A stretch of DNA of 64,000 nucleotides from Burkholderia stabilis (GTDB lineage Bacteria > Pseudomonadota > Gammaproteobacteria > Burkholderiales > Burkholderiaceae): contig NZ_CP016443.1 of NCBI RefSeq assembly GCF_001742165.1, positions 1,116,001-1,180,000 of the forward strand. Reading direction: 5' to 3'. The notes under the pieces were generated by a model that had not been told where the DNA came from, searched no databases, and saw nothing but the letters and a program-made list of their open reading frames with translations. A program made the translations under genes and the position numbers. Shown one piece after another: positions 6,001-23,040 of this stretch; positions within the stretch are counted from its first letter, which is position 1, and each line of letters opens with the position of its first letter.

Positions 6001-9000
6001 GATCACGCCCGTCGGCTGACCGATCGGCTGCCCGGTGGTCGGATCGATCGCAGCCGAGAAATCCTGGCCCGGCGCAAGTCCGGCGGGAACGAGCGTCCCG
6101 CTCTGCCGCACGACGAGCGCCGTCGCACCGGCCGAGCTACTGTTCTGATGCGGCAGAATCGCAAGCGTGCCGCCGCGCGCCTGCGAAGCGCCACCGTGGC
6201 CGGCCAGCGTCCCGTCCGCGAAGAGGCCGTACGCGGCCGACAGCGTGATCGAACCGGCATCGCTCCACACGGGCTGCGACGCATAAGTGCCGTTCGCCTG
6301 CAAACGATCGAAGTTCGCCGACGTGCCCGACACGTCGATCGTCGAACCGGTTTGTGCGACGACGTAACCCGCATCGCTCGACAGCGTCACCGAACCGCCC
6401 GGCAGAACCTTGCCGGAATTGGGCACGACAGTCGTTCCCCCACTTTGACAGGCGTGGCGAGCGGATTGGCGAGCGCGACACCGGATACGTCGAGCGTCGC
6501 ATCGGAACCGAGCCAGACAGATCGGCTGTTGCTCGGCGTGTAGACATTGAATTGCCCCGGTTGACCGGTCGTGCCGCCAGTATCGGCACTCAGCACGATC
6601 GCGCCGCCCGGCGCGACCACCAAGCCGAGCACGGTAACCTGCTTCGGTGAAGCGAGCGCGATGCTCGCCCCCGCATCGGCATTGATCGATGCCCCGGACG
6701 ACAGCGTCACCGCACCGGTTACGCCCGGATACGATGGCGGCGGGCCGTCCGGCCCGTTTTGCCACGCAACGTAACTCCCGCCCGTCAACACGAGGTTCGT
6801 CGGTTGCCGGTGATAGGCGTCGAGCTGACCGATCGTCGTCAGGCTGCCAGCAGACAGATTCGCGCCCGACCCTGTCTGCTGGAGCGCCAGTGCATCCGGA
6901 ATACGGTTCAACTGAGTGAGTGCGGCCGCTGCACCCGGCGCGACGGTCGAATCGTAGTACGCATTCAGCACGTACTTGCCGAAGCCCTGTTGCGAGAAGA
7001 AGTTTTCGGGCAGATAGACGTCCCACGGCGCCGCCGCCGCGCGGTCTCCACCGATCCGGAAGCCGAGCGCCTCCAGCGTCAGTGTGCCGCCCCCCGAAAA
7101 ACCTTCGCTCAGAATCGTACCGCCCATCGCGATCGTGCCTGCAACCGGTTGGGTAGCAGGCAGCGGCGAACCGCTGTCGCGCGTATGACCGAACTGCTGC
7201 GTCGCCTGCGAAGCGGCGTATGTCTGCAACGTAACGTTGCCTCCGCGTCCGGCCGGGACACCGTTCTGCATCAGCAACTGACCGTTCGCGAGCATTTCGC
7301 CGCCGCTCGATACGTCGAGCACGCTGCCCGGTTGCAGCAGGATCGATCCTGTCGCGTCCACGGCGACGCCGTCCACGAAGGTCGAATTCTGCTTTGCCGA
7401 CAGCGAAATGCTGCCGCCGTTGATGAACTGGCTGTTGCCGGGCGTCGTACCCGGCGCGGCCTGCACATCGTTGTTCACCCACTGGCCTGCGGCATTGATC
7501 GCGCCCTGCGGCCCGACGACCACATTGCCGCCGCTCGTGATCGAAATCGAACCGGACGGCGCGGACAGCCGCCCCGCGACGTTCACGTCGGCGCCGACCG
7601 CCGGGCTGTTGAGCGAGATCGAACCACCCGGCTGCAGATTCAGTTGCGTGCCCTGCGCAACCACGATGCCCTTGCCCGTGTTCTTGTCCTCCGACACGTT
7701 CAGGTTCGCGAAACTGCCGCTGTTCAACTTCGCAACGGGCACGATCTGCGTCGTCAGCAGGTTGTTCGGATCGTTGGCGGCCAGCGACTGGTACGCGGTC
7801 TTGTCGATCGGCGTACCGATCGAGAAACCCGGCATCAGCGCGCCGAGTTGCGGCGCGTTGTCCTGCAGGATCGCGAAGCCCGAGATGCCGTTGAACGTGA
7901 TCGTCGGGTTAGCGCCGGTGTTCCACGTCATCCCGGCCAGCGCGCCGCCGGCCAGCTTCGGATCGGCGCCGAGGTTGAACGTGCCGCCCGACGGCAGGCT
8001 GTTGCCCTGCATCTGCTTCGCGCCGCCGAACGCCTGCGCGCTGATGTCGCCGTCGAGCACCAGCGCCTGCGACGCGAACAGGTCGAGCGTGCCCGCATTG
8101 CCGCCGACGATGTAGTCGGACTGGTAAGTGCCGCCCGTCTGCAGCGGGTTGAACCAGGACTTCGTCACGCCCCAGCGCGGGTGACTCTCGACGAACTGCC
8201 CGGCGATGCCGATGTAACGCTCATAGGGGCTCGCCTGTCCGATCGGCACGATTGCACCGTTGGCGTCGACGAGCCGCGTCGTGTTGACCATCCCGCCGTT
8301 GTAATGCACGTACCCGCCGTTCAGGTTCATCGACGAACCGGTCGCGGTCATCACCTCGTTGCCCGACAGCGTGATCGTGCCGCCGTTGGTCAGCAGTTGA
8401 TCGACGGTGCGCGGAATCAGGTTCACGTAGCCCGACAGGTTCAGGATCGGGCTGCCGACCCACTGCACGCCGTCGCTGCGCGTGCCCGTCAGCGTGCTGT
8501 CGACGACGACGCCCTTCAGCCCGAACAGGAAGCTGTTGCGCAGCAGCGGCGAATCGGCCAGTTCGTTCTGGCCGATCCGGTCGATCGTCACGAGCGTCTG
8601 CGAGATCGGCGCCTGCACGTTTGCGAGCCCCGACACGTCGATCGTCGCGCCGTCATCGACGTAGATGCGACCCGGCACCGCGGTCTGGCCCGGCACCTTG
8701 TTCGACACGATCGACGGCGCATAGGCCGTGACCGACACGTTCGATCCCGGCGCCTCGATCAGCGAGCCACCCTGGAACCAGACCGAACCGGCCGTCATCG
8801 TGATGCCGCCCGGCGTGAACGTCGTGCCCGGCGTCGACGTCGCGGTCTGGCCATTGTTGTCGGACAACACGGTCGTCACCGATCCCGGCCCGAAGCTCAG
8901 CAGGCCGGCGCGATTGACGTTGTCGCCGCCGCCGGTGCCGCCCGTGACCGGGACCGTGCCCGTATACGGATTGCCCAGCGGATTGTTCGACGCATACTCG

Positions 9001-10437
9001 TCCGCCGTCGAGATCGTGATCGTGCCCGGCGTGTTGACGCTCGTCGTCACGCCCACCACGCCGTTTTGCGCAACGCGGCTGCCAAGCAGGTTCACGTTGC
9101 CGCGGGCAGCCTGGACGATGCCCGTATTGGTCAACGTGCCAGCCGGCGTGACGTCGATCGTCCCGCCGGTCTGAAAATCCGTCGTCACGATCTGCCCGCT
9201 CAACTCCGGCAGCAGGACTTGCGGGTTGCCCGTCGCCCCGGCTCCGTTCGGCCGCAGGCTCACCCCCACGCCCGCCGCGAGCACGACTTGCCCCGACGTC
9301 GCCGAAATGCTGCCCGCGTTCGTCACGTTCGGCGCCGCAACCAGCACGAACCCGCCGTCGCTCGCCGTACCGTTGGTATGCGTCGTGATCGACGCCCCCT
9401 GCTCGATCGTCACGTCGCCCGGCGCCTGATACGTCCCGATCAGCAGCGCCTGACTACCGAGCCCCAGCACCTCGTTCGGCTTGCCCCCCCGCCCCGACCG
9501 TTCCGCCCGAACTCCCCGACTCCGGATAAGCCAGCCCGCCCGTCGTCCCCGCCGGCAAACTCAGGAACTGCTGGTTGCTCGCAACGATGCCCGCCGGCGT
9601 CGGCACGAGCTGATTCTTCATGTCGAGCAGGTTCAGCGACGACGCAACCAGCGAATGCACGTTGACCTGCGACCCCGCACCGAACAGCACGCCGTTGCGG
9701 TTGATCACGTACACCGCGCCCTGCGCGGTGATGTTGCCGAGAATCTGGCTCGGCCGCCCGCTCGGGTCGTTGATCCGGTTCAGCACGGCCCAGTTGTTCG
9801 CGCCGTTCGTCTGCGTGCCGGCCGACTGGTCGAAGTTCAGCGTGGTCTGCCGGCCGACGTTCATCGTCTCCCACGTCAGCACCGCGTTCTGCCCGGTCTG
9901 CTTGACGTCGACGTTCACGTGCCCGCTGCCGTCGACGGTCTGCTTCGGTCCGTTCGCGTTGACCCACAGCAGCGGGTTGCCGGCATCCGTGTTCTGACTG
10001 ATCGGGTTGCCGTTGTTGTCCGTCACGAAGGTCACGCCGTTCGCCACCTGCAGCCCGCCCGGCGCAAGCCCGTTCGGCACGGTCGACGGCAGCTTCGCCG
10101 CCGCGGCAGCCGCGTTCTGCTGCGCGGCGATCTGCGCGGCGATCGCATGTGCGGCATAGCCGAGGTTGCGGATCGACGGCTGGCTCGCCTGCAGCGCCTG
10201 CTGCGGCGACACGCCGAGATTCGGCATGCCCGGCGCACCGCCGGCGCCTGCCGCGCCGCCCGACGCACGCGGCGTCGCCGCCCCGAGGTTCATGATCCCC
10301 GCGGCCTGCACGTGCGCGGACGCGCCCGCCAGCAGCATCAGCGCCACGGCCTGAACCAGCGGCCGCAGTTCCGATTTCAGGGTCGAGCGCGACCCCGTCG
10401 CGTCAGGTTGTCGTGCCGTGCGTGCGCGTGCTGCCAT
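1..10437 (-). pseudogene. Giant filamentous-haemagglutinin-like (TPS) exoprotein, N-terminal part, two frameshifts, runs off left edge
   Basis: The gene starts at 10437 and is still open at base 1, so over 3,400 residues are visible. Residues 1-46 are an extended signal peptide ending in AHVQAA. Residues about 150-300 form a two-partner-secretion/haemagglutination domain with an INRNGVLFG-type motif and SQVNVHSLVASSLNL. The rest is glycine/asparagine/threonine-rich, cysteine-free beta-helix-like repeat sequence. The reading frame breaks twice. A G7 run (9484-9490) carries one G too many for the frame, giving a stop at 9454. A G5 run (6437-6441) carries one too few and restores the original frame, which then stays open to base 1. 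Family knowledge: such proteins are secreted adhesins usually exported by a TpsB porin, which is not in the window. Without repair only about 327 residues would be made. Sequencing error, phase variation and decay are all possible. Confidence 0.85.
9484..9490 (-). repeat. G7 homopolymer at the first frameshift of the exoprotein gene
   Basis: Seven G on the coding strand follow codons for TVGA. With six G the frame continues into GKPNEVLGLGSQALLIGTY, the expected continuation of the TPS domain. With seven it ends at a TAG about 30 bases later. It is a possible slipped-strand switch or a base-calling error. Confidence 0.6.
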
Positions 10438-10593
10438 TCTTCACCCCGAATCCTATGAAATTGCGCTTGACGACGGTCGCGCCGAAAGCGGTGCCGATCC
10501 GTTGCCGCGTCTGGTCATTGCGTCCCGGCCTGAACCCGGCCGCCAGAATCACAAGAACATACGAAGACGCGATGGCAACCGCGTGGCGGGTGT

Positions 10594-10628
10594 TACGGAC
10601 CATTCCGGCCGGATGCGAAAGGTCCGTA
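10594..10628. promoter_or_regulatory. Inverted repeat upstream of the exoprotein gene, containing the shared AATGGTCCGTA word
   Basis: The plus strand reads TACGGACC (10594-10601), 19 bases, then GGTCCGTA (10621-10628), a perfect 8-bp dyad. The left arm is part of the 11-bp word TACGGACCATT (10594-10604), also found at 17510-17520 and 18791-18801. It lies in the 212-bp gap between the TPR operon and the exoprotein start. No T-run follows the dyad on the minus strand, so it looks like an operator or activator site rather than a terminator. Confidence 0.5.
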
Positions 10629-10649
10629 GCTTTTGTCACAGTGGGCCGG

Positions 10650-12890
10650 TCACGCGCTTGCGCGATGCGCGCCAATGCGGGCTGCCAGCGCCTCGGCCAC
10701 ACGCTCGACCAGCGCCGGCCAGTCGCCGGGCCGCTGCTGCCGGAACAGCGTTGCGTGCGGATACCACGGGCTGTCGTCGCGTTCGAGCAGCCAGCGCCAG
10801 TCCGGCACGCGCGGCAGCAGCACCCACGTGGGCCGCCCGAGCGCGCCGGCCAGATGCACGACCGACGTATCGACCGCGATGACGAGGTCCAGCGTGTCGA
10901 CGAGCGCAGCCGTTTCCGCGAAATCGGTCAACTCCGCCTCGAACGACAGCACGCCGCTCGCGGCGAACGCGTCGGCGTCGCGCGCACGCACGCCGACCTG
11001 CAGGCTCACGAACGTCGCATCGAGCGCGACGAGCGGCGCGAGCGCGGCGAACGTCATCGACCGGTTTTCGTCGTTCGCGTGGTCCGGATTGCCCGACCAC
11101 GCGAGCCCGATGCGCAACCGTCGTGACGGCGCGGCCGCGTCGAGCCGCCCGATCCATTCGGCGCGCCGCCGCGGGTCGGCATGCAGGTACGGCACGCCGG
11201 CCGGCACCGTGTCGAGCGTCGTGCGGAACGCGAACGGCAGACTCAGCATCGGGCAATGGAGATCGAACGCGGGCGCCGGCTGGCCGTCGACGACGACGCG
11301 GCTCACGCCGCGCAGCGTGCCCAGCAGACCGGCCAGCGCGGCCGGCGCGTCAATGAGCACGGTCGCGCCGCGATCATGCGCGAGGCTCGCGTAACGGCAG
11401 AACTGCAGCGTGTCGCCGAAGCCCTGCTCCGCATGCAGCAGCAGCGTGCGCCCCGCGAGCGGCGCGTCGCCCGTCCATTGCGGGCGGTCCGCATGACGCC
11501 GGTGCAGCGTCACGTCGGCGGCATCCCAGCGCGTTTCGTGCTGCCGCCAGCCCGCATCTAAGTCGCCCATCACCAGGCGGCAGAACGCCTCGGACCGGCG
11601 CGCGACGCCATGATTCGGATCGCGCACGCACGCCAGCGCGAAATCGGCCAGCGCGGCGGCGTAGTCGCCGAGCTGCTGGCGTGCGACCGCGCGCGTATAA
11701 ATCTCCTGCGCCGTGCGGCTGGGCGCGCTGGCGGCGGCCGCGTAACTCGCGAGCGCGTCGTCGTAACGGCCGAGCAGTTGTTGCGTGATCGCGCGATTGC
11801 ACAGCACTTCCGCGTGCGGGCCGCGCGCGTCGAGCGCACGGTCGTAATGCGCGAGCGCTTCGTCGTACGCGCCGGACGCCCGCAGCGCGCCGGCCCGATT
11901 GCGCAGCGCGTCGAAATCCGCCGGCGCGCGCGCAAGCGCTTCGCCGTACGCGTGCGCGGCTTCCTCGTGGCGCCGCAGCCCGAGCAGCGCGTTGCCGCGG
12001 CCGACCCACGCGCCGACGTGGTCGCGATCGCGCGCGAGCAGCCGGTCGCTGCGCTTGAGCAACGCGTCGCGCAGATGCAGCAGATCGAGTGCGACGCAGC
12101 TCACGAACAGCAGCTGCATGTCGTCCGGCAGCCGCGCGAGCGCTTCGTCGAGACACGCCAGCGCTTCGGCCGGCCGCCCCAGCTCGATCAGCGTATAGCC
12201 GCACGCATAGACGAGATCGGGCGTCTTGCCGCGCACGACCATCGCGAGCTGGAAACAATGCAGCGCCTCGTCGCCGCGGCCGAGCGCGCGCAACGCATGG
12301 CCGCGTTCGGCGAGCGCTGCCGGGTCGTCCGGATCGAGCCGCAGCGCGCGCTCGATGCTGATCAGCGCGTCGGCCGGCCGGCCGAGCGCGCGCAATGCCT
12401 CGCCGCGCCGGACCCACGTCGACGCGCGGCCCGGTTCGCGCGCCAGCGCGAGATCGCAGGCGCCGACCGCTTCGCCGTGCCGCCCGAGCGCGTGCAGTGC
12501 GTCGCCGCGCGCCGCATGCGCCGGCGCATGACCGGGGTCGCGCGCGAGCGCCTGGGCAGCGGCATCGAGTGCCTCACGATGACGGCCCGCGCCGGTCAGC
12601 GCCGCCGCATGATTCGCGAAATTCCACGGATGATTCAAGCCGGATCGCATCGATCGCGCGATCAACGGCTCCGCGCGCACGGGATCGCCGCGCTGAAGAT
12701 GCACGACTCCGAGCAGGTGCAGCGCCTCGACGTGGTCGGGCATCATCGCCAGCACTCCCTCGTAGAGCCGCCCCGCGCCCGCGAGATCGCGCTGCTCGAG
12801 CCGCGCGCGCGCATGGCGCAACGCATCGTCGACCGCCGCCCGCAACGGTGCGGCGCCCGCGCCGAACGCCGGCGCCTGCGCCATGCTCAT
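10650..12890 (-). CDS. TPR protein with C-terminal GT9-like glycosyltransferase domain (third of three tandem paralogues)
   Basis: A 746-residue protein. The first roughly 480 residues are tandem 34-residue TPR units (patterns such as GRHGEAVGACDLALAREPG and GRYDDALASYAAA). The rest is a glycosyltransferase-family-9/heptosyltransferase-like domain with HAEQGFGDTLQFCRY, RIGLAWSGNPDHANDENRS, DLVIAVDTSVVHLAGALG and a DDSPWYP signature near the end. The ATG at 12890 overlaps the stop of the upstream paralogue (ATGA), so the two are translationally coupled. The EQG-GD nucleotide-sugar-site-like motif is intact. Standing directly before the giant exoprotein gene, it may be a cytoplasmic partner that modifies or chaperones it; that is inference, since enzymatic activity is not shown by sequence. 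There is no signal peptide or membrane segment. Confidence 0.85.
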   Translation of the reverse strand: MSMAQAPAFGAGAAPLRAAVDDALRHARARLEQRDLAGAGRLYEGVLAMMPDHVEALHLLGVVHLQRGDPVRAEPLIARSMRSGLNHPWNFANHAAALTGAGRHREALDAAAQALARDPGHAPAHAARGDALHALGRHGEAVGACDLALAREPGRASTWVRRGEALRALGRPADALISIERALRLDPDDPAALAERGHALRALGRGDEALHCFQLAMVVRGKTPDLVYACGYTLIELGRPAEALACLDEALARLPDDMQLLFVSCVALDLLHLRDALLKRSDRLLARDRDHVGAWVGRGNALLGLRRHEEAAHAYGEALARAPADFDALRNRAGALRASGAYDEALAHYDRALDARGPHAEVLCNRAITQQLLGRYDDALASYAAAASAPSRTAQEIYTRAVARQQLGDYAAALADFALACVRDPNHGVARRSEAFCRLVMGDLDAGWRQHETRWDAADVTLHRRHADRPQWTGDAPLAGRTLLLHAEQGFGDTLQFCRYASLAHDRGATVLIDAPAALAGLLGTLRGVSRVVVDGQPAPAFDLHCPMLSLPFAFRTTLDTVPAGVPYLHADPRRRAEWIGRLDAAAPSRRLRIGLAWSGNPDHANDENRSMTFAALAPLVALDATFVSLQVGVRARDADAFAASGVLSFEAELTDFAETAALVDTLDLVIAVDTSVVHLAGALGRPTWVLLPRVPDWRWLLERDDSPWYPHATLFRQQRPGDWPALVERVAEALAARIGAHRASA

Positions 12891-15128
12891 CGCAGCGCCC
12901 CCGCCGCCAGCGCCGGCAGCGCGTCGCGAATCCGCTCGACGACCGGCGCCCACTGGCCGCCCTCCGGCTGGCGGAACAGTCGCGCGCCCGGATACCACGG
13001 GCTGTCGTCGCGATCGAGCAGCCAGCGGAAGTCGGGCGTGTGCGGCAGCATCACGGCGAGCGGCCGGCCGAGCGCGCCGGCCAGGTGCGCGACCGACGTA
13101 TCGACGCTGATCACCGCGTCCATCACATCGGTCAGCGCGGCCGTTTCCGCGAAATCCGTCAGCGCGTCGCCGACGAAGCGAATCGCGCTCGCGTCGAGCG
13201 TGGCGCGATCCTCGTCGCGGATCACCTTGTGCAGGCTGATCCATTCGTAGCGGTCGTCGAGCAGCGGCACCAGGTCGGCGAGCGTGATCGAGCGATTGCG
13301 GTCGTTCAGGTGCAGCGGGTTGCCGGCCCAGACGAGGCCGATGCGCGGCCGGTCGGTCGCACCCAGGCGCGTACGCCAGTGCTCGACGCGCGCGGGATCG
13401 GCACGCAGGTACGGCGCGCCCGCCGGAATCGACGCAAGATCGGTGCGAAATTCGAGCGGCAGGCTCAGCAGCGGGCAATGCAGATCGAACGGCGGCAGCG
13501 GGTCGCCGCGCGCGACGAGCACGTCGACGCCGTCGAGCGTCGCGAACAGCGCCTTCAGTTCGACCGGCGCCTCGAGCACGACACGCGCGCCGAGCGCCTT
13601 CACGAGCGGCACGTAACGACAGAACTGCAGCGTGTCGCCGAGCCCCTGCTCCGGATACAGCAGGATCGTCTGCCCGTCGAGCGGCATCCCGTGCGTCCAG
13701 CGCGGCTGCGCGAAGTCGCGCCGGCTGCCGTCGAGCTGGCTGTCGCGCCAGCGCCATTCGTATTCGGCCCAGCCGGCTTCGAAATCGCCGATCGACAGGC
13801 ACAGGAACGACCGCATGCAGTGCGCGTGCGCATAGTCGGGATCGATGTCGATCGCTTCCGCATACGCGCGCAGCGCGTCGTCGTTGCGTCGCAGCGCGCG
13901 CAATGCGCTGCCGCGATGAAAATGCGCGAGCTTGTCGCGCGGCGTTGCGGCGATCACGCGTGCGAGATCGTCGAGCGCATCGTCGTAGCGGTGCGATTCG
14001 AGCCGCACGCGTGCGCGCGTGAACGACGCAGGCGTGTAGTGCGGGTCGATCGCCAGCGCACGGTCGCACAGGTCGTGTGCGTCGTCGTGACGATCGACAC
14101 GCATCAGCGCGCTCGCGTAGTTGCACAGCACGCCGATGCTGCCCGGCTCGGCATCGAGCGCGCGCGCATAGCTGTCGACCGCCTCCGCGTAGCGGCCCAG
14201 GTAGCTCGCCGCGTTGCCGCGATTGGCGAGCGCGCGCATGGCGCGGATCGATCGCGATCGCGCGGTCGCAACGCATCAGCGCCTCGTCGTGCCGGCCGAG
14301 CTGTTCGAGCGCGACCGAGCTGTTGAAGATCGCCTCGACGAACGCCGGGCTCGCCGCAATCGCCGCATTGAAATCGGCCAGCGCGTATTCGGGGTCGTGC
14401 AGGTCGAGATAAGCGACGCCGCGCAGGAACAACGCGTCGGCGCTGCCCGGCCGCAGCGCGAGCGCGTGGCCGTAGCTGTCAGCCGCGTCGCGGAAGCGGC
14501 CGAGTTCGCGCAGCGCGAGCCCGCGCCCGCGCATCGCGTCGAACGTGCGGCCCGCGAGCGCGATCGCGCGGTCGCAGTCGGCGAGCGCGTCGTCGAAGCG
14601 GCCGAGCGCGCGCAGCATGTCGCTGCGTTTCACGTAACCGTCGGCGAAACCGGGCGTCAGTTCGAGCAGCCGGTCGTAGACCGCTCGCGCCTCGTCGTAC
14701 CGCGCAAGTTGCGCGAGCAGCCCGGCCCGCTGGAACAGCACGCGCTGATGCACGGGATTGATCGCGAGCGCCTCGTCGAGCCGCGCGAGCGCATCGTGTT
14801 CGCGCCCGAGCCCGGCCAGCACCGCCGAGTAGTTCGCGAGCGCAAGCGGCACCGGCTGGCGCTCGACCGAGCGCCGCATCAGCGGTTCGGCATCGTCGAG
14901 CCGCCCCTGCTGGAAACGCACCGCGCCGAGCAGGTGCAGCGCCTCCGGATGCTCGGGATCGATCGCCAGCAATTCGGCGTACGCGTTCTCCGCGTGCTGC
15001 AGCGCGCCCTCGTGATGCGCCTTGCGCGCACGCACGAGCAGCCGTTCGAGCTGCGCGGTATCGGGCGGACGGCGTTCCGGCGCGAGCAGCGCGCTCGCCA
15101 GTGTCGTCCCTTCCCCATTCGGTGTCAT
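12887..15128 (-). pseudogene. TPR/GT9-like glycosyltransferase paralogue (second of three), frameshifted near 14235
   Basis: Residues 1-296 (15128 down to about 14240) are TPR units; the frame then slips and continues from about 14239 to the stop at 12887. The junction lies in an alternating GC tract, where two missing bases would restore DPRHARALANRGNAASYLG. Repaired, the protein is about 747 residues, matching its neighbours. The C-terminal domain carries LLYPEQGLGDTLQFCRY, RIGLVWAGNPLHLNDRNRS and VISVDTSVAHLAGALG. The start at 15128 lies 42 bases after the upstream paralogue's stop, and the stop overlaps the next start. If the frameshift is real, the C-terminal half could be translated only by reinitiation. 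Family assignment is firm; whether the gene is broken is not. Confidence 0.8.
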
Positions 15129-15170
15129 CGTGTGGCCCCCACTTGTCGCTGTTCGTGTCGCGTGTCGTGT

Positions 15171-17393
15171 CTAACGTGTCATCGGTTCGAGCGCGGCGCG
15201 CACCGCGCCGATCGCATCGGCCCAGTCGCCGGGCGCCGGCTGGCGAAACAGCCGCGCGGACGGATACCACGGGCTGTCGCCGCGCGTACGCATCCAGCGC
15301 CATGCCGGCGGATCGGGCAACAGCACCCAGACGCGCGCGCCCAGCGCGCCCGCCAGATGCGCAACGGCGGAATCGGCCGCGATCACGAGATCCAGCGCGC
15401 CGATCAGCGCAGCCATATCCGCGAAATCGCCGAGTTCGTCGTCGACGCGGCGTACCGGCGTATCCGCCAACCGCGCGTCGTCGTGTTCATGCACGGGTTT
15501 CTGCAGGCTGATCCAGTCGACGTCGAGATCGAACAGCGGCGTGAGCCGCGCGAAGTCGATCGACCGGCCGGCGTCGTGCCGTTGCGCCGGATCGCCCGCC
15601 CATGCGAGCCCGATGCGCGGCCTGCGCCGTTCGCCGAGCAGCGCGTCCCACTCGCGCGTGCGTTGCGGGTCCGCATGCAGGTAGGCCGCGTCGCGCGGAA
15701 TGGTGTCGGTTTCGGTGCGAAACGCGTATGGCAGGCTCGGCAGCGGCACATGGCAATCGAAGGCCGGCAGCGGCGCGCCGCGCGATATCACGTGGGCCGC
15801 GCCGGCAAGCGACGGCATCAGCGCGTGCAACGAAGGCGGTACCTCGAGCACCACACGCGCGCCGCGCGCGGCGACGAGCGGCACGTAGCGGCAGAACTGC
15901 AGCGTGTCGTCGAAGTCGGGCTCTGCGTGAATCAGGATCGTCCTGCCATCCAGCGGCTCGTCGCCGCGCCACGCCGGCTGCGTGAACGACCGCGCATACC
16001 GCGCGAATTGCGGATCGCGCAGCCGCCATTCGTACCCATGCCAGCCGCGCGCGAAATCGCCTTCCATCAGGTGCAGCGATGCACGCGCGCAATGCGCGCC
16101 GGCCCAGTCGGGTTGCAGCGCGAGCGCGCGGTCGTAGGCCGCAAACGCGTCGGCCGCCTGCGCACGGTCGGCGAACAGGTTGCCGCGCGCGAGCCAGCTC
16201 GCCGCGTGATCGGGACGCAGCGCGAGCGCGCGATCGAGCGACGCGAAGGCTTCGTCGTAACGGTGCAGGTCCTGCAGCACGCGGCTTCGGTTCGTCCACG
16301 CTTCGGCGAAACGGGGGTCGAGCGCGAGCGCGTCGTCGTAGCTGGCGAGCGCCGCATCGAAACGCTGCAGATGTCGCAGCGCCGTGCCGCGATTGCACAG
16401 CGTGTCGGCCGAACGCGGCTCGATGGCGAGCGCACGCGCGTAGCTGTCGAGCGCTTCGTCGTGACGCTCGAGCTGCAGCAACGCGTTGCCGCGGCTCGCG
16501 AGCGCGCGGGCGTCAGCCGGATCGTGCGCCAGCACGCGGTCGCAACGCGCGAGCGCTTCATCCGCGCGGCCCAGCCGTTCGAGCACGGCCGCGCTGTCGC
16601 ACAACGCATCGAGCCGCGCGGGATCGGCCGCGATCGCCTCGTCGAATGCGGCCAGCGCTTCGTTCAGGCGGTCGAGATCGGCAAGCGTGCGGCCGCGCTC
16701 GGCCACGATCGCGGCGACGCCCGGCCGGATCGCGTTCGCGCGATCGAAACAGTGCAGCGCGTCGGCCGCGCGCCGCATCTCGCGCAACACGAGCCCGCGG
16801 TTGAACCACGATTCGAACGAATGCGGATCGACCATCAGCGCGCGGTCGTAGGTGTCGAGCGCTTCGTCGAAGCGGCCGAGCGCACGCAGCGCGCCGCCGC
16901 GATTGCAGAGGGCGTCGAGCACGAGCGGCGACACCGCGAGCGCGCGGTCGAACGACGCGAGCGCGTCGTCATGGCGGCGCAAATCGGTCAGCGTGTTGCC
17001 GCGGCGCACGAGCGTCTGCACGTCGTCGGGCGATGCGCGCAGCGCGGCCGCGAAATGGGCGAGCGCCTCGTCGGTGCGGCCGCGCTCGCCGGCGATCGCG
17101 CCGAGATCCGACAGCGCACGCACGTCCGGCGCGATCGCGATCGACTGACGCAGCAGCGCTTCCGCATGATCGGCCGCGCCACGCTGGAATTGCAGCACGC
17201 CGTACAGATGGAGCGCCTGCGGATGATCGGGCGCCTTCGCGAGCACCGCGAGATAGTCGCGTGCCGCATCGTCGAACCGACCGGCGCCGTGCCACTGCTG
17301 CGCGCGGTTCAGGATCGCCGTCAATTGCCATTGCCCGGGCGCGTCGTGTCCCGACGCGCCCGCGTGTGCATCATGCCGGTGCTCGACCGTCAC
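15171..17393 (-). CDS. TPR protein with C-terminal GT9-like glycosyltransferase domain (first of three), altered motif
   Basis: A 740-residue protein, first gene of the TPR operon. About 14 TPR units fill residues 20-490 (for example GRFDEALDTYDRALMVDPHSFESWFNRG). A GT9-like domain follows, with RIGLAWAGDPAQRHDAGRS, DLVIAADSAVAHLAGALG and GDSPWYPSARLFRQPAPGDW. Its two paralogues have EQG(L/F)GDTLQFCRY, but here the run is EPDFDDTLQFCRY, so two glycines of the presumed substrate loop are replaced. It may therefore be a non-catalytic or re-targeted copy. The start at 17393 is preceded by a 188-bp gap holding the shared AATGGTCCGTA word, so the operon probably has its own promoter. Confidence 0.85.
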   Translation of the reverse strand: MTVEHRHDAHAGASGHDAPGQWQLTAILNRAQQWHGAGRFDDAARDYLAVLAKAPDHPQALHLYGVLQFQRGAADHAEALLRQSIAIAPDVRALSDLGAIAGERGRTDEALAHFAAALRASPDDVQTLVRRGNTLTDLRRHDDALASFDRALAVSPLVLDALCNRGGALRALGRFDEALDTYDRALMVDPHSFESWFNRGLVLREMRRAADALHCFDRANAIRPGVAAIVAERGRTLADLDRLNEALAAFDEAIAADPARLDALCDSAAVLERLGRADEALARCDRVLAHDPADARALASRGNALLQLERHDEALDSYARALAIEPRSADTLCNRGTALRHLQRFDAALASYDDALALDPRFAEAWTNRSRVLQDLHRYDEAFASLDRALALRPDHAASWLARGNLFADRAQAADAFAAYDRALALQPDWAGAHCARASLHLMEGDFARGWHGYEWRLRDPQFARYARSFTQPAWRGDEPLDGRTILIHAEPDFDDTLQFCRYVPLVAARGARVVLEVPPSLHALMPSLAGAAHVISRGAPLPAFDCHVPLPSLPYAFRTETDTIPRDAAYLHADPQRTREWDALLGERRRPRIGLAWAGDPAQRHDAGRSIDFARLTPLFDLDVDWISLQKPVHEHDDARLADTPVRRVDDELGDFADMAALIGALDLVIAADSAVAHLAGALGARVWVLLPDPPAWRWMRTRGDSPWYPSARLFRQPAPGDWADAIGAVRAALEPMTR

Positions 17394-17496
17394 GTTCGCC
17401 CCCTTCCCGTTTGACGATGCCGCCGCTGAACCGGCCGATGGAACCGGTCGCGGCGGTCATGCTCGTCACGAGACTAACGGACGGCCAATAACAGAC

Positions 17497-17520
17497 GTAT
17501 GACGAAAGTTACGGACCATT
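17497..17520 (-). promoter_or_regulatory. Shared AATGGTCCGTA motif upstream of the TPR-glycosyltransferase operon
   Basis: The coding strand reads AATGGTCCGTA followed by ACTTTCGTCA. Aligned with the two other copies, the pattern is AATGGTCCGTA-M-C-W-Y-Y-C-G-N-C-A. It sits about 104-117 bases upstream of the start codon at 17393. It could be an activator site or an alternative-sigma promoter; I cannot name the factor. Confidence 0.5.
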
Positions 17521-17581
17521 TTGTGCGGGGGACGGAACGGCTTTCCGCATATGGGCGCGCGTACCGGGCCGCATTGCGCAT

Positions 17582-18244
17582 TCATTGACCGATCGGGATC
17601 GTTCGCACGTACTCGACCGCCGGCGCGCCCATCGTGACCGCGAAGCGGACGCCGCGCGGCACCGGCGCACCGATCGACGTCGAGTTGCTGATGCCGTGCT
17701 GCGCGAGAAACTGCGCATAGGCCTGCTCGATGACGGTCTGGCTCGTCGTCCATCCGTCCGGCGGAATCCATACGGAAAGCTGCATCGAGCGCGCATCGTT
17801 GCTGACGACCACGCGCGCGAACGCATCCATGTGATGCAGCGCGTCGTCGACCTCGGCCAGCGACGCCAGCGGCTGCGACGCGCTGCGCACGAGCTCGCGC
17901 CCCGTCAGCCGGTAACGCACGACCTGCATGTGCGTCGGCCCGCCGCCGACACCGAGATGGCGCACCATCACGAGTTCGTCCGGGCGGATGCGCAACGGCG
18001 GCCCGAACACTTCGTCGGGCGTCACGAGGTTGGTCAGGTCGAACTGCAACTGGGAGAAATAGCGGCCGAGCAGGCGCGTTTGCGCCAGATTCGACGCGAT
18101 ATCGTCGCGGCCGCGGATCGTCGCGTCGAGGCCGCGCCACGACAGCAACGCGATCACGGCGAGCAGCGTGATCGCGACCAGCATCTCGATCAGCGTGAAG
18201 CCGCGGGCGCGCGCCGCCGCACGCGGTTCAGCGGCGCGCTTCAT
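17582..18244 (-). CDS. Type II secretion-like minor pseudopilin, GspJ-like
   Basis: A 220-residue protein with a class-III prepilin leader: a short positive N-terminus, the RG|FTLIE processing site at residues 14-20 (Phe16 as mature residue 1, Glu20 as the conserved Glu5), then a hydrophobic helix LVAITLLAVIALLSW. The C-terminal domain (DDIASNLAQTRLLGRYFSQLQ, FGPPLRIRPDELVMVRH) resembles GspJ. It overlaps the upstream gspI-like gene by 17 bases, as in T2SS operons. No gspG, H, K, D, E or prepilin peptidase is nearby in the window, so the pair is orphan here. It could form a pseudopilus tip with a T2SS encoded elsewhere, or act in a separate assembly linked to the adjacent exoprotein. Confidence 0.8.
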   Translation of the reverse strand: MKRAAEPRAAARARGFTLIEMLVAITLLAVIALLSWRGLDATIRGRDDIASNLAQTRLLGRYFSQLQFDLTNLVTPDEVFGPPLRIRPDELVMVRHLGVGGGPTHMQVVRYRLTGRELVRSASQPLASLAEVDDALHHMDAFARVVVSNDARSMQLSVWIPPDGWTTSQTVIEQAYAQFLAQHGISNSTSIGAPVPRGVRFAVTMGAPAVEYVRTIPIGQ

Positions 18245-18659
18245 TCTGGATCACCGTGACGACTTCGGCGAGCACGTTGCGGCTCGACGCGGACGGATAG
18301 ACGCTCACCGTCACGCGGCGCACCAGCGGGCTCGGCAGCGCGGCCACCGACTGGCGGCACACGAACCGGTAGCGGCCCTGCGGACACGCGAACGTGTTCG
18401 TGCCGACGGACGGCCAGGTCGACGCGATGCGGATTTCGCCGAGCGCATTGTCGGCGCTCCATAACGCGAGCAGGCGCATGCGGGCCATATCGGTGTCCGA
18501 CGCGAGCGCGCCGATCGCGCGCATCACGGCGCCGAGCGCCACCGCGACGATCGCCAGTGCGATCAGCACCTCGATCAGCGTGAATCCCCGTTGCGGCGCC
18601 CGCGCCGTGCGCGATCCGCCGCGCCCATGGCAGTTGGTGTCGGTTCTGTCGTCGCACAT
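18228..18659 (-). CDS. Type II secretion-like minor pseudopilin, GspI-like
   Basis: A 143-residue protein from the ATG at 18659; a longer start at 18743 would give an implausible 53-residue leader. The prepilin site is RG|FTLIE at residues 24-30, followed by VLIALAIVAVALGAVMRAIGAL. The body (ADNALGEIRIASTWPSVGTNTFACPQGRYRFVC) fits GspI: the position of the pair of cysteines and the RRVTVSVYP strand are typical. It is the first gene of a two-gene unit with the gspJ-like gene. The shared AATGGTCCGTA word lies about 130 bases upstream. GspI normally nucleates the I-J-K tip of the T2SS pseudopilus in the periplasm; no gspK is seen. Confidence 0.78.
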   Translation of the reverse strand: MCDDRTDTNCHGRGGSRTARAPQRGFTLIEVLIALAIVAVALGAVMRAIGALASDTDMARMRLLALWSADNALGEIRIASTWPSVGTNTFACPQGRYRFVCRQSVAALPSPLVRRVTVSVYPSASSRNVLAEVVTVIQNEARR

Positions 18660-18790
18660 GACCTGCGTTCTTGTCGATGGGTCGTCGCCCGGCGGCCGGC
18701 GATCGAGCCGCGGCCCGGGCCCCATCGCCGGCGCGACGGACACCGTGCACGGACGTTAAGCGCGGCGTGTGGCACGCACGTGTCGGATGG

Positions 18791-18801
18791 TACGGACCAT
18801 T
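18791..18801 (-). promoter_or_regulatory. Shared AATGGTCCGTA motif upstream of the gspIJ-like pair
   Basis: The third copy reads AATGGTCCGTA on the minus strand, followed by CCATCCGACA, which fits the same extended pattern as the copies at 17510 and 10594. Distance to the preferred gspI-like start is about 130 bases. Confidence 0.5.
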
Positions 18802-18969
18802 TGGCGCGGGCAGACCGGGGCGCATCGGCGCGCGGGGGCACCGCATGCGGCGTCGCGCGACGAACGCGCATTGCGGCAAACGGAAGACGGGAAACGATCG
18901 GGAGAAAACCGCCCGGCAGCGAATGGCCGGCGGTGATGGCGATCCCCGGACGGGATCGGCGCGACGGCG

Positions 18970-19176
18970 TCAGGCCGTCACGGCGTCGGCATACTCGGCG
19001 CGGGCAAGCTGGCCGGCGGCGTATGCCTCGGCTTCGCCGCGCAAGCCATCCCGGCTGAACGCGACGACTTTCACGCCAACGCCGGACGCCCGCTGTACCG
19101 TCAGCGCCCATTGCCATCCGCCGTCTTGTTCAAAGACGTGCAGCGAGGGTTCGAAGGTAGGGTCGAGTACGGTCAC
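18970..19176 (-). CDS. Conserved-looking small hypothetical protein (68 aa)
   Basis: It encodes an acidic 68-residue soluble protein (MTVLDPTFEPSLHVFEQ...), with aromatic residues in the first half (GGWQWALTV) and an alanine-rich helical end (GEAEAYAAGQLARAEYADA). There is no signal peptide, membrane segment or cysteine pair. Codon use matches neighbouring real genes and the opposite frames are not better, so I accept it as a gene. I do not recognise a function. It is single, with 168 bases before the gspIJ promoter motif on one side and 343 bases before alkB on the other. Confidence 0.6.
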   Translation of the reverse strand: MTVLDPTFEPSLHVFEQDGGWQWALTVQRASGVGVKVVAFSRDGLRGEAEAYAAGQLARAEYADAVTA

Positions 19177-19519
19177 GCGTTATGCTCCTGCCCCCTTGCG
19201 CATTGCATCGGCAACGCACGGGGCATGTCGAAAAGGTCGCGCCGGGATCCGACGCGTTTCAGCCATTCGACAGTCTAGCCAATGATTGTTGCGACGCACC
19301 ATCAGAGGTTTCACTCATCTATCGGAACCGGACGGTCGATCGAATATGTCTGAAACCCATATAGGACAAGCCTTTGGGCCGTTTCGGGCCACATCGTCCC
19401 GCGTTCGTGCGGCAACGTGCCGCATGCTGCGTCGCTTGCTTGCCTTGGTCGTTCGTGGATTGCGAAAACGGGGCGCGATTTATCCCGCGGCCCTGGCACG
19501 CCAGGATGACGGCCGGATG
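19177..19519. other. Intergenic region between the small hypothetical gene and alkB
   Basis: It must carry the promoter of the 68-residue protein and the 3' end of the alkB transcript. I see no convincing gene, terminator hairpin with a T-run, or repeat in it. Confidence 0.5.
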
Positions 19520-20125
19520 CTAGCGCTCCGCGCCGGCCGGCATCACGCGCCGGAACGTCAGGTTGACCCGCTCGCCCTGCACGCCCGGCGCCTTGGGCAC
19601 GCGATGCTGCCATTCGGCCTGCGTGCGCCCGCGCATCACGAGCAGGCTGCCGTGCACGAGGCGATACGCATGCGTGACGCCCGTCGCACGATGACGGAGA
19701 TCGAACACGCGCATCGCGCCAAGGCTCACCGACGCAATCACGGGCGCATCACCGAGTTCCGGTTCGTTGTCCGCGTGCCAGCCCAGGCTGTCCAGCCCGT
19801 TGCGGTAGCGGTTGAGCAGCACGCTGTTGAAACGCGCGCCGCACGTCGCTTCGACCGCCCGCTTCAGTTCGAGCACGGCTGGCGTCCACGGCGCGGGCAC
19901 GTTGCGAATGCCCGAATACACGTAAACGGCGTCCGGCTCGCCCTGCAACGCGGTGAGCCTCGGCAACGGAATGCGTCCGCGCGGCGTGCGGATCGTGTCC
20001 TGCCGCCACGCGACCTCGCCGATCAGCGCGGCCAGCACGCGATCGGCGTCGGGCTGCGCAAGCCAGTCCGGGTACCAGTCCACGTCGGGCGCGGGCGTGT
20101 CGGCAAAAAGATCGGGCGTCGACAT
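19520..20125 (-). CDS. alkB: AlkB-type 2-oxoglutarate/Fe(II) dioxygenase (alkylated nucleic acid repair)
   Basis: A 201-residue protein from ATG 20125 (MSTPDLFADTPAPDV); an upstream ATG at 20164 is less likely. Family features: the substrate-lid region PRGRIPLPRLTALQG, RFNSVLLNRYRNGLDSLGWHADNE with the iron-binding H-x-D pair, the distal iron histidine in QHRVPK, and 2-oxoglutarate-binding arginines in RVNLTFRRV. The enzyme family oxidatively demethylates 1-methyladenine and 3-methylcytosine in the cytoplasm. The gene is single and divergent from the nitroreductase gene across about 225 bases. The sequence is closest in form to the ALKBH2/3-like bacterial subgroup, so alkB is a family label rather than proof of orthology with E. 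coli AlkB. Confidence 0.88.
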   Translation of the reverse strand: MSTPDLFADTPAPDVDWYPDWLAQPDADRVLAALIGEVAWRQDTIRTPRGRIPLPRLTALQGEPDAVYVYSGIRNVPAPWTPAVLELKRAVEATCGARFNSVLLNRYRNGLDSLGWHADNEPELGDAPVIASVSLGAMRVFDLRHRATGVTHAYRLVHGSLLVMRGRTQAEWQHRVPKAPGVQGERVNLTFRRVMPAGAER

Positions 20126-20350
20126 GTCGGAGGGAACGGGCGATGAACGGGGCGAACGATGCATGCCTGCATACTAGCCAACCGCGCCGCGCACCGCCAT
20201 GCGCTGTCATTCGCCGCCGGCGGGAAGCCCGCTGCGCCGGCGCGCATCACGCTATCATCGCGGCGTGTCGCGGCGCGCCCTGCCGGGGGCGCCGCTTTCT
20301 TCAGCCACGCCGGCCGGCGCGACCCGGCCGCTTTCTTCCCGGACCCCATC

Positions 20351-20938
20351 ATGACGACGCTCTCCGATTCCGCCCTCGATCAACTGTTCCTCACCGCGCG
20401 CACGCACAACGCATGGCAGGACAAACCCGTCGACGACGCACTGCTGCACCGGCTGATCGACCTGACGAAATTCGGCCCGACCTCGGCGAATTCGAGCCCC
20501 GCCCGCTTCGTGTTCGTCAAGTCGCCCGAAGCGAAGGCGCGCCTGAAGCCCGCGCTGTCCGAAGGCAATCTCGCGAAGACGATGGCTGCGCCCGTCACGG
20601 TGATCGTCGGCATGGATTTCGCGTTTCACGAGCACCTGCCGCGGCTGTTCCCGCACGCCGACGCGCGCAGCTGGTTCGCCGGCAACGACGCGCTGATCGA
20701 GACCACCGCGTTCCGCAACGCGTCGCTGCAAGGCGCCTACCTGATCCTGGCCGCCCGCGCGCTCGGCCTCGACGCGGGCCCGATGTCCGGCTTCGACAAC
20801 GCGAAGGTCGATGCCGCGTTCTTCGCGGGCACCGCGATCCGGAGCAACTTCCTCGTGAATCTCGGTTACGGCGATCCGGCCGGCCTGTTCCCGCGCAGCC
20901 CGCGCTTCGATTTCGACGACATCGCGCGGATCGAGTGA
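20351..20938 (+). CDS. Nitroreductase-family protein, RutE-like (malonic semialdehyde reductase type)
   Basis: A 195-residue flavoprotein from ATG 20351. Family motifs are [27 protein letters not shown], the FMN-contact segment [40 protein letters not shown] and [21 protein letters not shown]. Length and motifs match the RutE/HadB subgroup of NAD(P)H-dependent nitroreductases. The other rut pyrimidine-degradation genes are absent here, so the physiological substrate is unclear. The gene is convergent with the metallophosphoesterase 50 bases downstream. Confidence 0.85.
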
Positions 20939-20988
20939 CGGCCGCCGGCAAGGCCCGTTCGCAAGCCCGTTGTTAGCGGGAACCGGCC

Positions 20989-22134
20989 CTAGCCGCGCGT
21001 CAGGCGAATCAGCGTGATCTCGGACGGCACGCCGAAGCGGTTCGGCGGCCCCCAGTATCCGGTGCCGCGGCTCGTATAGAGCCACAGATCGCCGAAACGG
21101 CTCAGCCCGCCGATCACCGGCTGCTGCAGCCGCACGAACGGCGGCCACGGCAGGAACTGGCCGCCGTGCGTATGCCCTGAAAGCTGGACGGTAAAACCGG
21201 CCCGGTTCGCCGCTTCCGCGCTGCGCGGCTGGTGCGCGAGCAGGATCTTCGTGCCGACGTCGTGCGGCGCGCCCGCCAGCGCCCGTTCGGGGTCGCTGCG
21301 ATGTGCGGGATCGAAGCCGCCCGCCGCGAAGTCGGTCACGCCCGCGAGCACCGCGCGCGCACCGCCGCGCTCGATCAGCACGTGCTCGTTCAGCAGCACC
21401 GTCAGCCCGATGCGCCGGAATTCGTCGATCCAGGCATGCGCACCCGCGTAATACTCGTGGTTGCCGGTCACGAGGAAGCTGCCGTACCGCGACTTCATGC
21501 GGCCGAGCGGCGCCGTGTGCTCGCGCAGGCGCTTGACCGAACCGTCGACCACGTCGCCGGTCACGACGACGACGTCCGCATCGAGCGCGTTGACCGCACG
21601 CACGATCCGTTCGATATAGGGCCGCTTGATCGTCGGCCCGACGTGGATGTCGGACAGCTGCACGATCGTCAGCCCGTCGAGGCCGGCGGGCAGCCCCGCG
21701 ACCGGAATCGACACCCGCTTGACCGCCGCCGTGCGGCGCGCGCCGACGAACCCGATCGCCGTGACGAGCACCGCGGCCGCCAGCACGCCGACCGCCGTAT
21801 CGCCTGATGCTCCGCTCCACGCGCCGGCATGCACGAACTGCCGCCACACGACCACGCCGAGCAGCACGAATTCGCGCAGCAGCGTCAGCGCGAGCAGCGA
21901 CGAGAAGAAGCCCATCACGAGCGAGCCGACCCAGCCGACGAGCGTCGCGGCCCAGCCTTCGTCGAAGCGGCGCGAGAACATGCCGACCGGGATCAGCACG
22001 ACGAAGCTCGCCAGCACGAGCGCGGCGACCGTGCGCGCGACCGGCGACGCGAACGCATCGGGAATGATCCGTATCCCGACATACAGATGGAACAACACGC
22101 CGATTGCAATGAACCGGACAAAGAAACTTCGCAT
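20989..22134 (-). CDS. Membrane-anchored metallophosphoesterase (YaeI/YkuE-like)
   Basis: A 381-residue protein from ATG 22134 (MRSFFVRFIAIGVLF). The first 150 or so residues hold four or five hydrophobic segments. The calcineurin-like phosphoesterase domain then shows the full dimetal set: QLSDIHVG, VTGDVVDG, TGNHEYY, LLAHQP and GHTHGGQF. Related proteins hydrolyse phosphodiesters or UDP-diacylglucosamine-type lipids at the membrane, but this sequence does not settle the substrate. The gene stands alone with 612 bases of non-coding DNA upstream. Confidence 0.85.
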   Translation of the reverse strand: MRSFFVRFIAIGVLFHLYVGIRIIPDAFASPVARTVAALVLASFVVLIPVGMFSRRFDEGWAATLVGWVGSLVMGFFSSLLALTLLREFVLLGVVVWRQFVHAGAWSGASGDTAVGVLAAAVLVTAIGFVGARRTAAVKRVSIPVAGLPAGLDGLTIVQLSDIHVGPTIKRPYIERIVRAVNALDADVVVVTGDVVDGSVKRLREHTAPLGRMKSRYGSFLVTGNHEYYAGAHAWIDEFRRIGLTVLLNEHVLIERGGARAVLAGVTDFAAGGFDPAHRSDPERALAGAPHDVGTKILLAHQPRSAEAANRAGFTVQLSGHTHGGQFLPWPPFVRLQQPVIGGLSRFGDLWLYTSRGTGYWGPPNRFGVPSEITLIRLTRG

Positions 22135-22746
22135 GGAGCGTTCACCTTCGTTGCGATACGGCTTCCGCGACGAGCATCGCACGGGGCGATGACGCCCCAT
22201 GCCGCGCTTCGCGCCATACGCACGATGGTACACAGATCCCGTTCCCGACGACCGGTCGTGCCCGTCGGCGGCACATCGCGCGGGGCCGGACGATGACCGG
22301 CGATCCCGTGTCGGTCACGACCATCCGCACCGATCTCGACGACCTCGATCCCGTCACGCCCCTCGAGGAAACGACCGGACCGACCTGACCGGATTCCCAT
22401 GCGTTCGAGCGGCAAACAGCCGTTTCCACATCGATTGCGCTGCGTGGGCGCAGCAAACATCTTCCGCCTTCTTTCGTCTGACGATCCTTTACAGTCCGTT
22501 AGCAACCCTACACGAGCTTGCGCTGGCAGAATCGCGGCGGCCCGGGCGCCGTCACCGAAACACGATGCCGGACGGAACGGCGCGGCCGCGACCGGCCACG
22601 GCCCGTGTCGCGAACGCGGACCGGATAGCTGGCGGTCCGCATCGCGCTGCTTTATTATCGGCTCCGTATCGCGGAACAGTCGTCGCGGCGACCAACCGCA
22701 TTGCGCCGTGCCCGGCATCCACCCCCATCGTCGAGCTCGCCACACC
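22135..22746. other. Intergenic region upstream of the metallophosphoesterase and the efflux operon
   Basis: About 610 bases separate two divergent units. I find no gene that beats its antisense frames, and no tRNA. A lower-GC patch at roughly 22430-22510 is the likeliest place for the efflux-operon promoter. No regulator is encoded next to the pump. Confidence 0.5.
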
Positions 22747-23040
22747 ATGAGAAAAACAACGCCGCGCGCGCCCCTGCGCGTCGCCGCCGTCCTGGCGCCC
22801 GCCCTGCCGCTCGCGGGCTGCGCATCGCGCGGCGCGCCGTCGTACGTCCTGTTCGGCGCGTATTTCCCGCTCTGGCTCGTCAGCGCGATCGTCGGCATCG
22901 TCGGCGCGATCGTCGCGCACCGCGTGTTCGTCGCGACCGGCTGGGCCGCCACGGTCCCTTACCAACTGGCCGTGTGCACCGCGATCGGGCTCGTGATCGC
23001 CGTGATCGTCTGGCTCACCGGCACGGGGCCGTTCGCATGA
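22747..23040 (+). CDS. YtcA-family small lipoprotein of an efflux operon
   Basis: A 97-residue protein with a lipoprotein signal (ALPLAGC lipobox near residue 24) and two hydrophobic segments (YFPLWLVSAIVGIVGAIVAHRVF and LAVCTAIGLVIAVIVWL). APSYVLFGAYFPLWL is characteristic of the YtcA family, which precedes mdtNOP-type pump genes. The stop overlaps the next start (ATGA at 23037-23040), indicating translational coupling. Its function is not established; it probably assists assembly of the pump. Confidence 0.8.
   Translation: MRKTTPRAPLRVAAVLAPALPLAGCASRGAPSYVLFGAYFPLWLVSAIVGIVGAIVAHRVFVATGWAATVPYQLAVCTAIGLVIAVIVWLTGTGPFA

Follow-up and report, generated by a model that had tools for sequence, protein, structure and literature searches.

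The closest described system is the PUMA3 locus of Pseudomonas aeruginosa, in which, according to the part of the source available, VreI controls the Hxc genes, PA0690 (TpsA), a transposase-like gene, TpsB, ExbBD and PpiC (PMC2729926); a homologous PUMA3 locus in B. vietnamiensis is already mentioned in the same text. The available sections of PMC4971064 report that P. aeruginosa pdtA and phdA require both PhoB and sigma-VreI, that pdtA depends on three elements of its promoter (pho box, −35 and −10), and that a pho box also precedes vreA, which lies outside sigma-VreI control. In pdtA the same sections place the pho repeats at −56 to −50 and −45 to −40, the −35 element at −34 to −29 and the −10 element at −11 to −5 (PMC4971064). 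Homologous loci were known before; in the literature searched, which holds few subscription-journal papers, the promoter element presented here was undescribed and no study of the regulation of this regulon in Burkholderia was found.

The DNA analysed here (the window) is a stretch of 64,000 nt from Burkholderia stabilis. Profile searches to the left of the window identified gspF, gspC, gspG, gspH, an STN/TonB_2 protein, an ECF sigma factor, a FecR-like protein and gspK; further along the block are TpsB (ShlB/FhaC), ExbB with a lectin-like domain, ExbD, a TonB-like protein, a porin and a PpiC-type isomerase. The VreA-like receptor (264 aa) has PF07660 (STN) and PF13103 (TonB_2) domains only and no beta-barrel, and the ECF sigma and FecR-like anti-sigma genes adjoin its gene on the same strand. 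This trio is like that of PUMA3, as judged by domain content. The linked T2SS, TPS exoprotein, TpsB, ExbBD, TonB, PpiC and transposase-like gene are also alike, as far as gene content is described in the available text, and so is the pho box before vreA. The Burkholderia block differs in adding TPR-glycosyltransferase-like and PstS-like genes. Its output promoters also appear to differ in layout, consisting of a conserved word, pho-like repeats and a −10-like hexamer 10–11 bp further on. In pdtA, as far as the available sections describe it, the pho box instead lies upstream of a separate −35/−10 pair, and this spacing is unmatched by the geometry inferred in Burkholderia.

An exact search of the window returned the 11-bp word AATGGTCCGTA on the minus strand at 10594–10604, 17510–17520 and 18791–18801, where an earlier note on this DNA had placed it. 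Each copy lies 5′ of a minus-strand unit, and profile matches agree with the reading of these units as the exoprotein gene, the TPR-glycosyltransferase-like genes and a gspI/gspJ-like pair. Dinucleotide shuffles of the window contained a mean of 0.02 copies and none of 100 reached three, which bears out the view that chance recurrence is very unlikely. When up to two mismatches were allowed, eight matches were obtained against a chance mean of 6.5; this count is not above chance, so the signal is confined to exact copies. The whole genome (G000; three contigs, 8.53 Mb) holds four exact copies, of which the fourth (C1:231890) is without the bases that follow the word at the cluster sites, and genome-wide the word element is nearly unique to the cluster. 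The alignment of the following bases, which the note had written as M-C-W-Y-Y-C-G-N-C-A, was confirmed, and similarity among the sites continues for about 30 bases beyond those first noted. The word is thus a real promoter mark but only the upstream part of a longer element, and its target set reaches to the left of the window. A fixed distance to the start site had also been expected: the distance to the start codon varies, whereas that to a −10-like hexamer is nearly constant.

With position 1 defined as the first G of GGTCCGTA, the element spans about 50 bp and comprises the word box (1–8), two 7-bp direct repeats (13–19 and 24–30) with an 11-bp period that resemble a pho box, a gap of 10–11 bp and a −10-like TA hexamer at approximately 41–47. 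The conserved columns are AAT (−2 to 0), GGTCCGTA, C10, YCGNCA (13–18), TGYYA (25–29) and the TA hexamer. Hexamers were picked by inspection of the aligned sites, and none was seen at the proximal of two sites on the PstS side described below. The word box is partly palindromic, reading AATGGT-CCGT-ACCATT at many gspI sites, a feature that is suggestive only.

On the minus strand at the exoprotein promoter, the exact-word and 16-bp box searches place the word box, 16 bp including its partial dyad, at 10589–10604. It is followed by pho-box-like repeats (13–30) at 10572–10589, the best of 60 offsets (local-background p = 0.0002), and by the hexamer TATGTT at 10556–10561. The first open piece of the exoprotein gene (9454–10437, minus strand) carries the TPS domain (PF05860, TIGR01901). 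By the same searches, the box of the TPR-glycosyltransferase-like promoter lies at 17505–17520 (minus strand), with the strongest repeats of the set at 17488–17505 (score 16.3) and TAGTCT at 17471–17476. Two TPR proteins with weak GT9-like tails follow by profile matches on the same strand, of 740 aa (15171–17393) and 1492 aa (10650–15128). The gspIJ promoter, also on the minus strand and found in the same way, has its box at 18786–18801, repeats at 18769–18786 (best of 60 offsets, p = 0.001) and TAACGT at 18753–18758. Downstream on this strand are gspI (18228–18743; T2SSI PF02501, TIGR01707 above its curated cut-off), the true start of which is probably downstream of 18743, and a gspJ-like pseudopilin (17582–18244; N_methyl, TIGR01711 below its curated cut-off).

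A search of the genome with the pho consensus, allowing up to two mismatches, gave 25 matches against eight for the reversed control; only the match adjacent to pstS, where the promoter has tandem pho-type repeats, was used further. For class and locus counts the pho matrix was built from the five repeats of this same-genome pstS promoter alone, and offsets 1–32 were scanned for the class counts; the matrix for single-site tests also took in two consensus repeats. Of the 85 distinct sites that make up the three window classes, 79 had their optimum at offset 13 (exoprotein 20/25, TPR 28/28, gspI 31/32). These sites are related, not independent, and were gathered using GGTCCGTANCNNNCGNCA, which builds the conservation of its own columns into the set; loci L074, L075, L086, L102, L104, L106 and L124 had been removed before the count as chance or non-cluster matches. 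At all three window sites offset 13 was also the best of 60 offsets (−14 to +45). At the level of sequence there is good support for a PhoB-type box within each of the three promoters of the window. An alternative box formed by the word and the second repeat (offset 2) was rejected, with p = 0.08–0.71 in five of six promoters and 0.03 at the TPR site. In having two 7-bp direct repeats, 11 bp apart, and by inspection a −10-like hexamer about 10 bp later, the Burkholderia output promoters are like PhoB promoters such as pstS. They differ in that their repeats are degenerate and stand behind a far more conserved word, one that neither pstS nor vreA was seen to carry in its promoter.

When 118 kb around the window were scanned with a matrix, the three word sites ranked top (50.2, 42.8 and 40.8). 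Next came two AATGTTCCGTA sites upstream of a PstS-like gene, just beyond the left edge of the window (30.0 and 21.3), and an inverted copy near the exoprotein promoter (18.5); a gspF site, also left of the window, was weak (10.9) and ranked lower. Five Markov sequences of 118 kb gave maxima of 22.8, 11.6, 14.0, 10.5 and 11.4, so the case for the weaker sites depends on where they lie and on their recurrence, not on score. A score of 14 was passed by the distal PstS-side site in 12 of 13 further Burkholderia loci and by the proximal one in 11. At the gspF promoter, most of the loci listed retained a second-repeat match and a TAGTCT-type hexamer. In the window genome another offset outscored 13 at both PstS-side sites, where 13 came second, and the optimum at gspF was 14. 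A strong pho box (p < 1e-4) was found at gspF in 0/19 loci and at the PstS-like gene in 1/21, figures that speak against a pho box shared uniformly by all targets. Two genes for PstS-like periplasmic binding proteins, possibly exported phosphate binders, lie between gspF and the exoprotein gene (L127:11991–15099, plus strand). An assignment of one site to each (PBP1 and PBP2) was discarded, as both variant sites precede the first gene; the mislabelling arose because the two genes cross-match. The 118-kb scan gave no word site before the second gene. The proximal site falls within the longest ORF of the first gene, the real start of which is probably a Met near L127:12264, judging from the sequence.

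Across the genus, TGGTCCGTANCNNNCGNCA matched 122 times in 45 of 65 genomes, against ten matches for the reversed pattern; the matches lie in the cluster in 34 genomes, in a relic in three and only at an ftsZ-side or unrelated copy in eight. A longer pattern matched 46 stretches in a wider contig collection, 41 from Burkholderia or Paraburkholderia and five from unrelated MAGs, the latter looking like chance. The 41 stretches hold 56 sites. For 54 of these, the 700 bp downstream contain a match to gspI, a TPR gene or the exoprotein gene, in one case to a relic gspI; the remaining two are at stretch ends. In six sigma-bearing Paraburkholderia-type genomes, scores above 14 were obtained for the exoprotein site in 6/6, the TPR site in 5/6 and the gspI site in 3/3 where the upstream region was covered, and for the proximal and distal PstS-side sites in 6/6 and 2/6, respectively; in G551 the one TPR gene examined is 44% identical and without a site. 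Conservation before orthologues, the test named beforehand in the earlier note, thus holds in both genera and, with the near uniqueness of the element genome-wide, strongly supports a shared cis-element of the cluster. Two kinds of copy were set aside as targets. Lone gspI-type sites in G008, G031 and G044 are relics of a lost cluster, with a truncated gspI alone in the stretches examined; loci L048, L057 and L062, from cluster-less genomes, keep the gspI promoter and truncated gspI as a deletion scar. A fourth extended-pattern copy (G000:C1:2050675) is conserved, but is without the AAT lead and third repeat; it lies between ftsZ and a peroxiredoxin-like gene (names from sequence reading without a family search), and its letters recur in the sigma-less genomes G009, G013, G023, G038, G045 and G047.

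The ECF sigma factor is likewise present in 34 of the 65 genus genomes. Motif and sigma occur together in 33 and are both absent from 30; the one motif-only genome is G058 (82% complete) and the one sigma-only genome is G030, which has paralogues of 58–61% identity. Fisher's test gives p = 3e-16 (5e-13 if the three relics are entered as motif-only genomes), values that overstate independence because the species are related. In 369 class-sampled genomes the sigma search gave one match, the window's own genome. G030 has a near-match before gspI (score 38.9) even though its sigmas are only 58–61% identical, a point against strict dependence on a close sigma. The word is missing from the exoprotein paralogues that lie next to paralogous sigmas in G030 and G048 (best score ≤ −0.7). 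As a preliminary lead, two of the four paralogues share TTGCGGTATYCGG, a different tandem word before the exoprotein gene of these vre-exoprotein units (L203:9232 and 9382; L205:8410 and 8563); five of the eight TTGCGGTATYCGG copies in these two genomes fall in the paralogue loci, from which the pattern was derived. A strong pho box (p < 1e-4) precedes the vreA-like gene in 20/20 loci, 44–54 bp before the start in 19 and elsewhere in L181, compared with 3/20 for vreI, 0/13 for gspG and 0/19 for gspH; word-matrix scores at the vreA-like promoter are low (median 3.1). A transposase/Phd-like gene is present in 33 of the 65 genomes, a set identical to that with the close sigma. In locus L127 its product (2979–4811, minus strand) is 610 aa long and is matched weakly by DDE-transposase and Phd/YefM profiles; the same locus encodes a conserved 309-aa block protein with no Pfam match (4691–5620, plus strand).

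Taken with the PUMA3 precedent, these features make it probable that the output genes belong to a cell-surface-signalling locus of the PUMA3 (VreA-VreI-VreR) type and are driven by composite promoters, in which the word forms the upstream box and on which PhoB and a VreI-like sigma factor act. The earlier note had proposed a common, unnamed regulator or sigma factor; the shared element agrees with a common one, but 'unnamed' was too strong. PhoB, together with the VreI-like sigma, is the most likely candidate because of the pho-box-like repeats inside the element, the VreA-VreI-VreR-like trio in the block, the precedent of PhoB acting with the ECF sigma VreI, and co-occurrence. Use of the element by the sigma is likely, on the basis of linkage, co-occurrence and precedent. 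We infer that when phosphate is scarce PhoB would occupy the two direct repeats just 3′ of the word and would separately bind the pho box before vreA, leading to production of the VreI-like ECF sigma. PhoB and sigma-VreI polymerase would then fire the gspIJ, TPR-glycosyltransferase-like, exoprotein and PstS-like promoters, and probably gspF, from predicted start sites downstream of the hexamers, with the word box setting these promoters apart from plain PhoB promoters (vreA and pstS). By analogy, the signature probably lets Burkholderia co-activate a secretion and surface-protein cluster at low phosphate. We tentatively suggest that the word box may be a second lock tying PhoB-type promoters to one signalling branch. 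Its reader would be either sigma-VreI polymerase, contacting it at an upstream position that is unusual, or a dedicated factor not yet recognised, and paralogous PUMA3 units in the genus would use words of their own. The signature is a testable one for a putative regulon of phosphate starvation and cell-surface signalling, carried by about half of the genus genomes (34/65). It places the giant exoprotein, the TPR-glycosyltransferase-like proteins, the pseudopilins and a PstS-like protein under one putative switch, and raises the concrete question of how a promoter can be shared between PhoB and an ECF sigma.

PhoB might instead bind the repeats and work together with the housekeeping sigma. 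The word, which at many gspI sites forms the partial dyad AATGGT-N4-ACCATT, would then be the operator of a further, dedicated DNA-binding protein, and the linkage of the VreI-like sigma would be incidental. The repeat-to-hexamer spacing does resemble that of the vreA promoter, G030 retains the motif before gspI without a close sigma, and the linked transposase/Phd-antitoxin-like gene is one candidate reader of the word. Yet G030 is without the Phd-like gene, no clear helix-turn-helix regulator was seen among the subset of block ORFs scanned, and the comparable P. aeruginosa outputs require the sigma (available sections of PMC4971064), so that we regard this arrangement as unlikely. Assigning the word as the −35 and TGYYAT (25–30) as the −10 element of the VreI-like sigma, with the intervening bases as spacer and the TA hexamer incidental, would give a start-to-start distance of about 23 bp, equal to that from −34 to −11 in pdtA (PMC4971064, available sections), and would suit a word that is tied to loci with the close sigma and missing from exoprotein paralogues beside paralogous ones. 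YCGNCA (13–18) would then be conserved within a spacer, the TA hexamer would be left unexplained, and no pho box was seen upstream of the word, offset 13 being the best of the 60 offsets scanned at the three window sites; we consider this assignment distinctly unlikely. That the word is a chance repeat, hairpin or mobile-element remnant of no regulatory role is highly improbable: an inverted copy just past the TPR gene stop codon could pair in RNA at the exoprotein site, but no exact inverted GGTCCGTA was found in the window beside the other two, and the shuffles, the cluster specificity and the conservation before orthologues in more than one genus contradict it.

The inverted copy, comprising the word and its following bases (10618–10638, plus strand; matrix score 18.5), sits between the TPR gene and the exoprotein promoter and is conserved in relatives. 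A search of positions 5000–23000 of the window against Rfam gave nothing at gathering scores. The exoprotein frame shifts twice in this genome, around 9454–9560 and 6387–7908 (region 6387–10440 and leftward). In fifteen relatives the frame is long and open from the promoter onward over the stretch examined, and the changes seen here may reflect either assembly error or decay.
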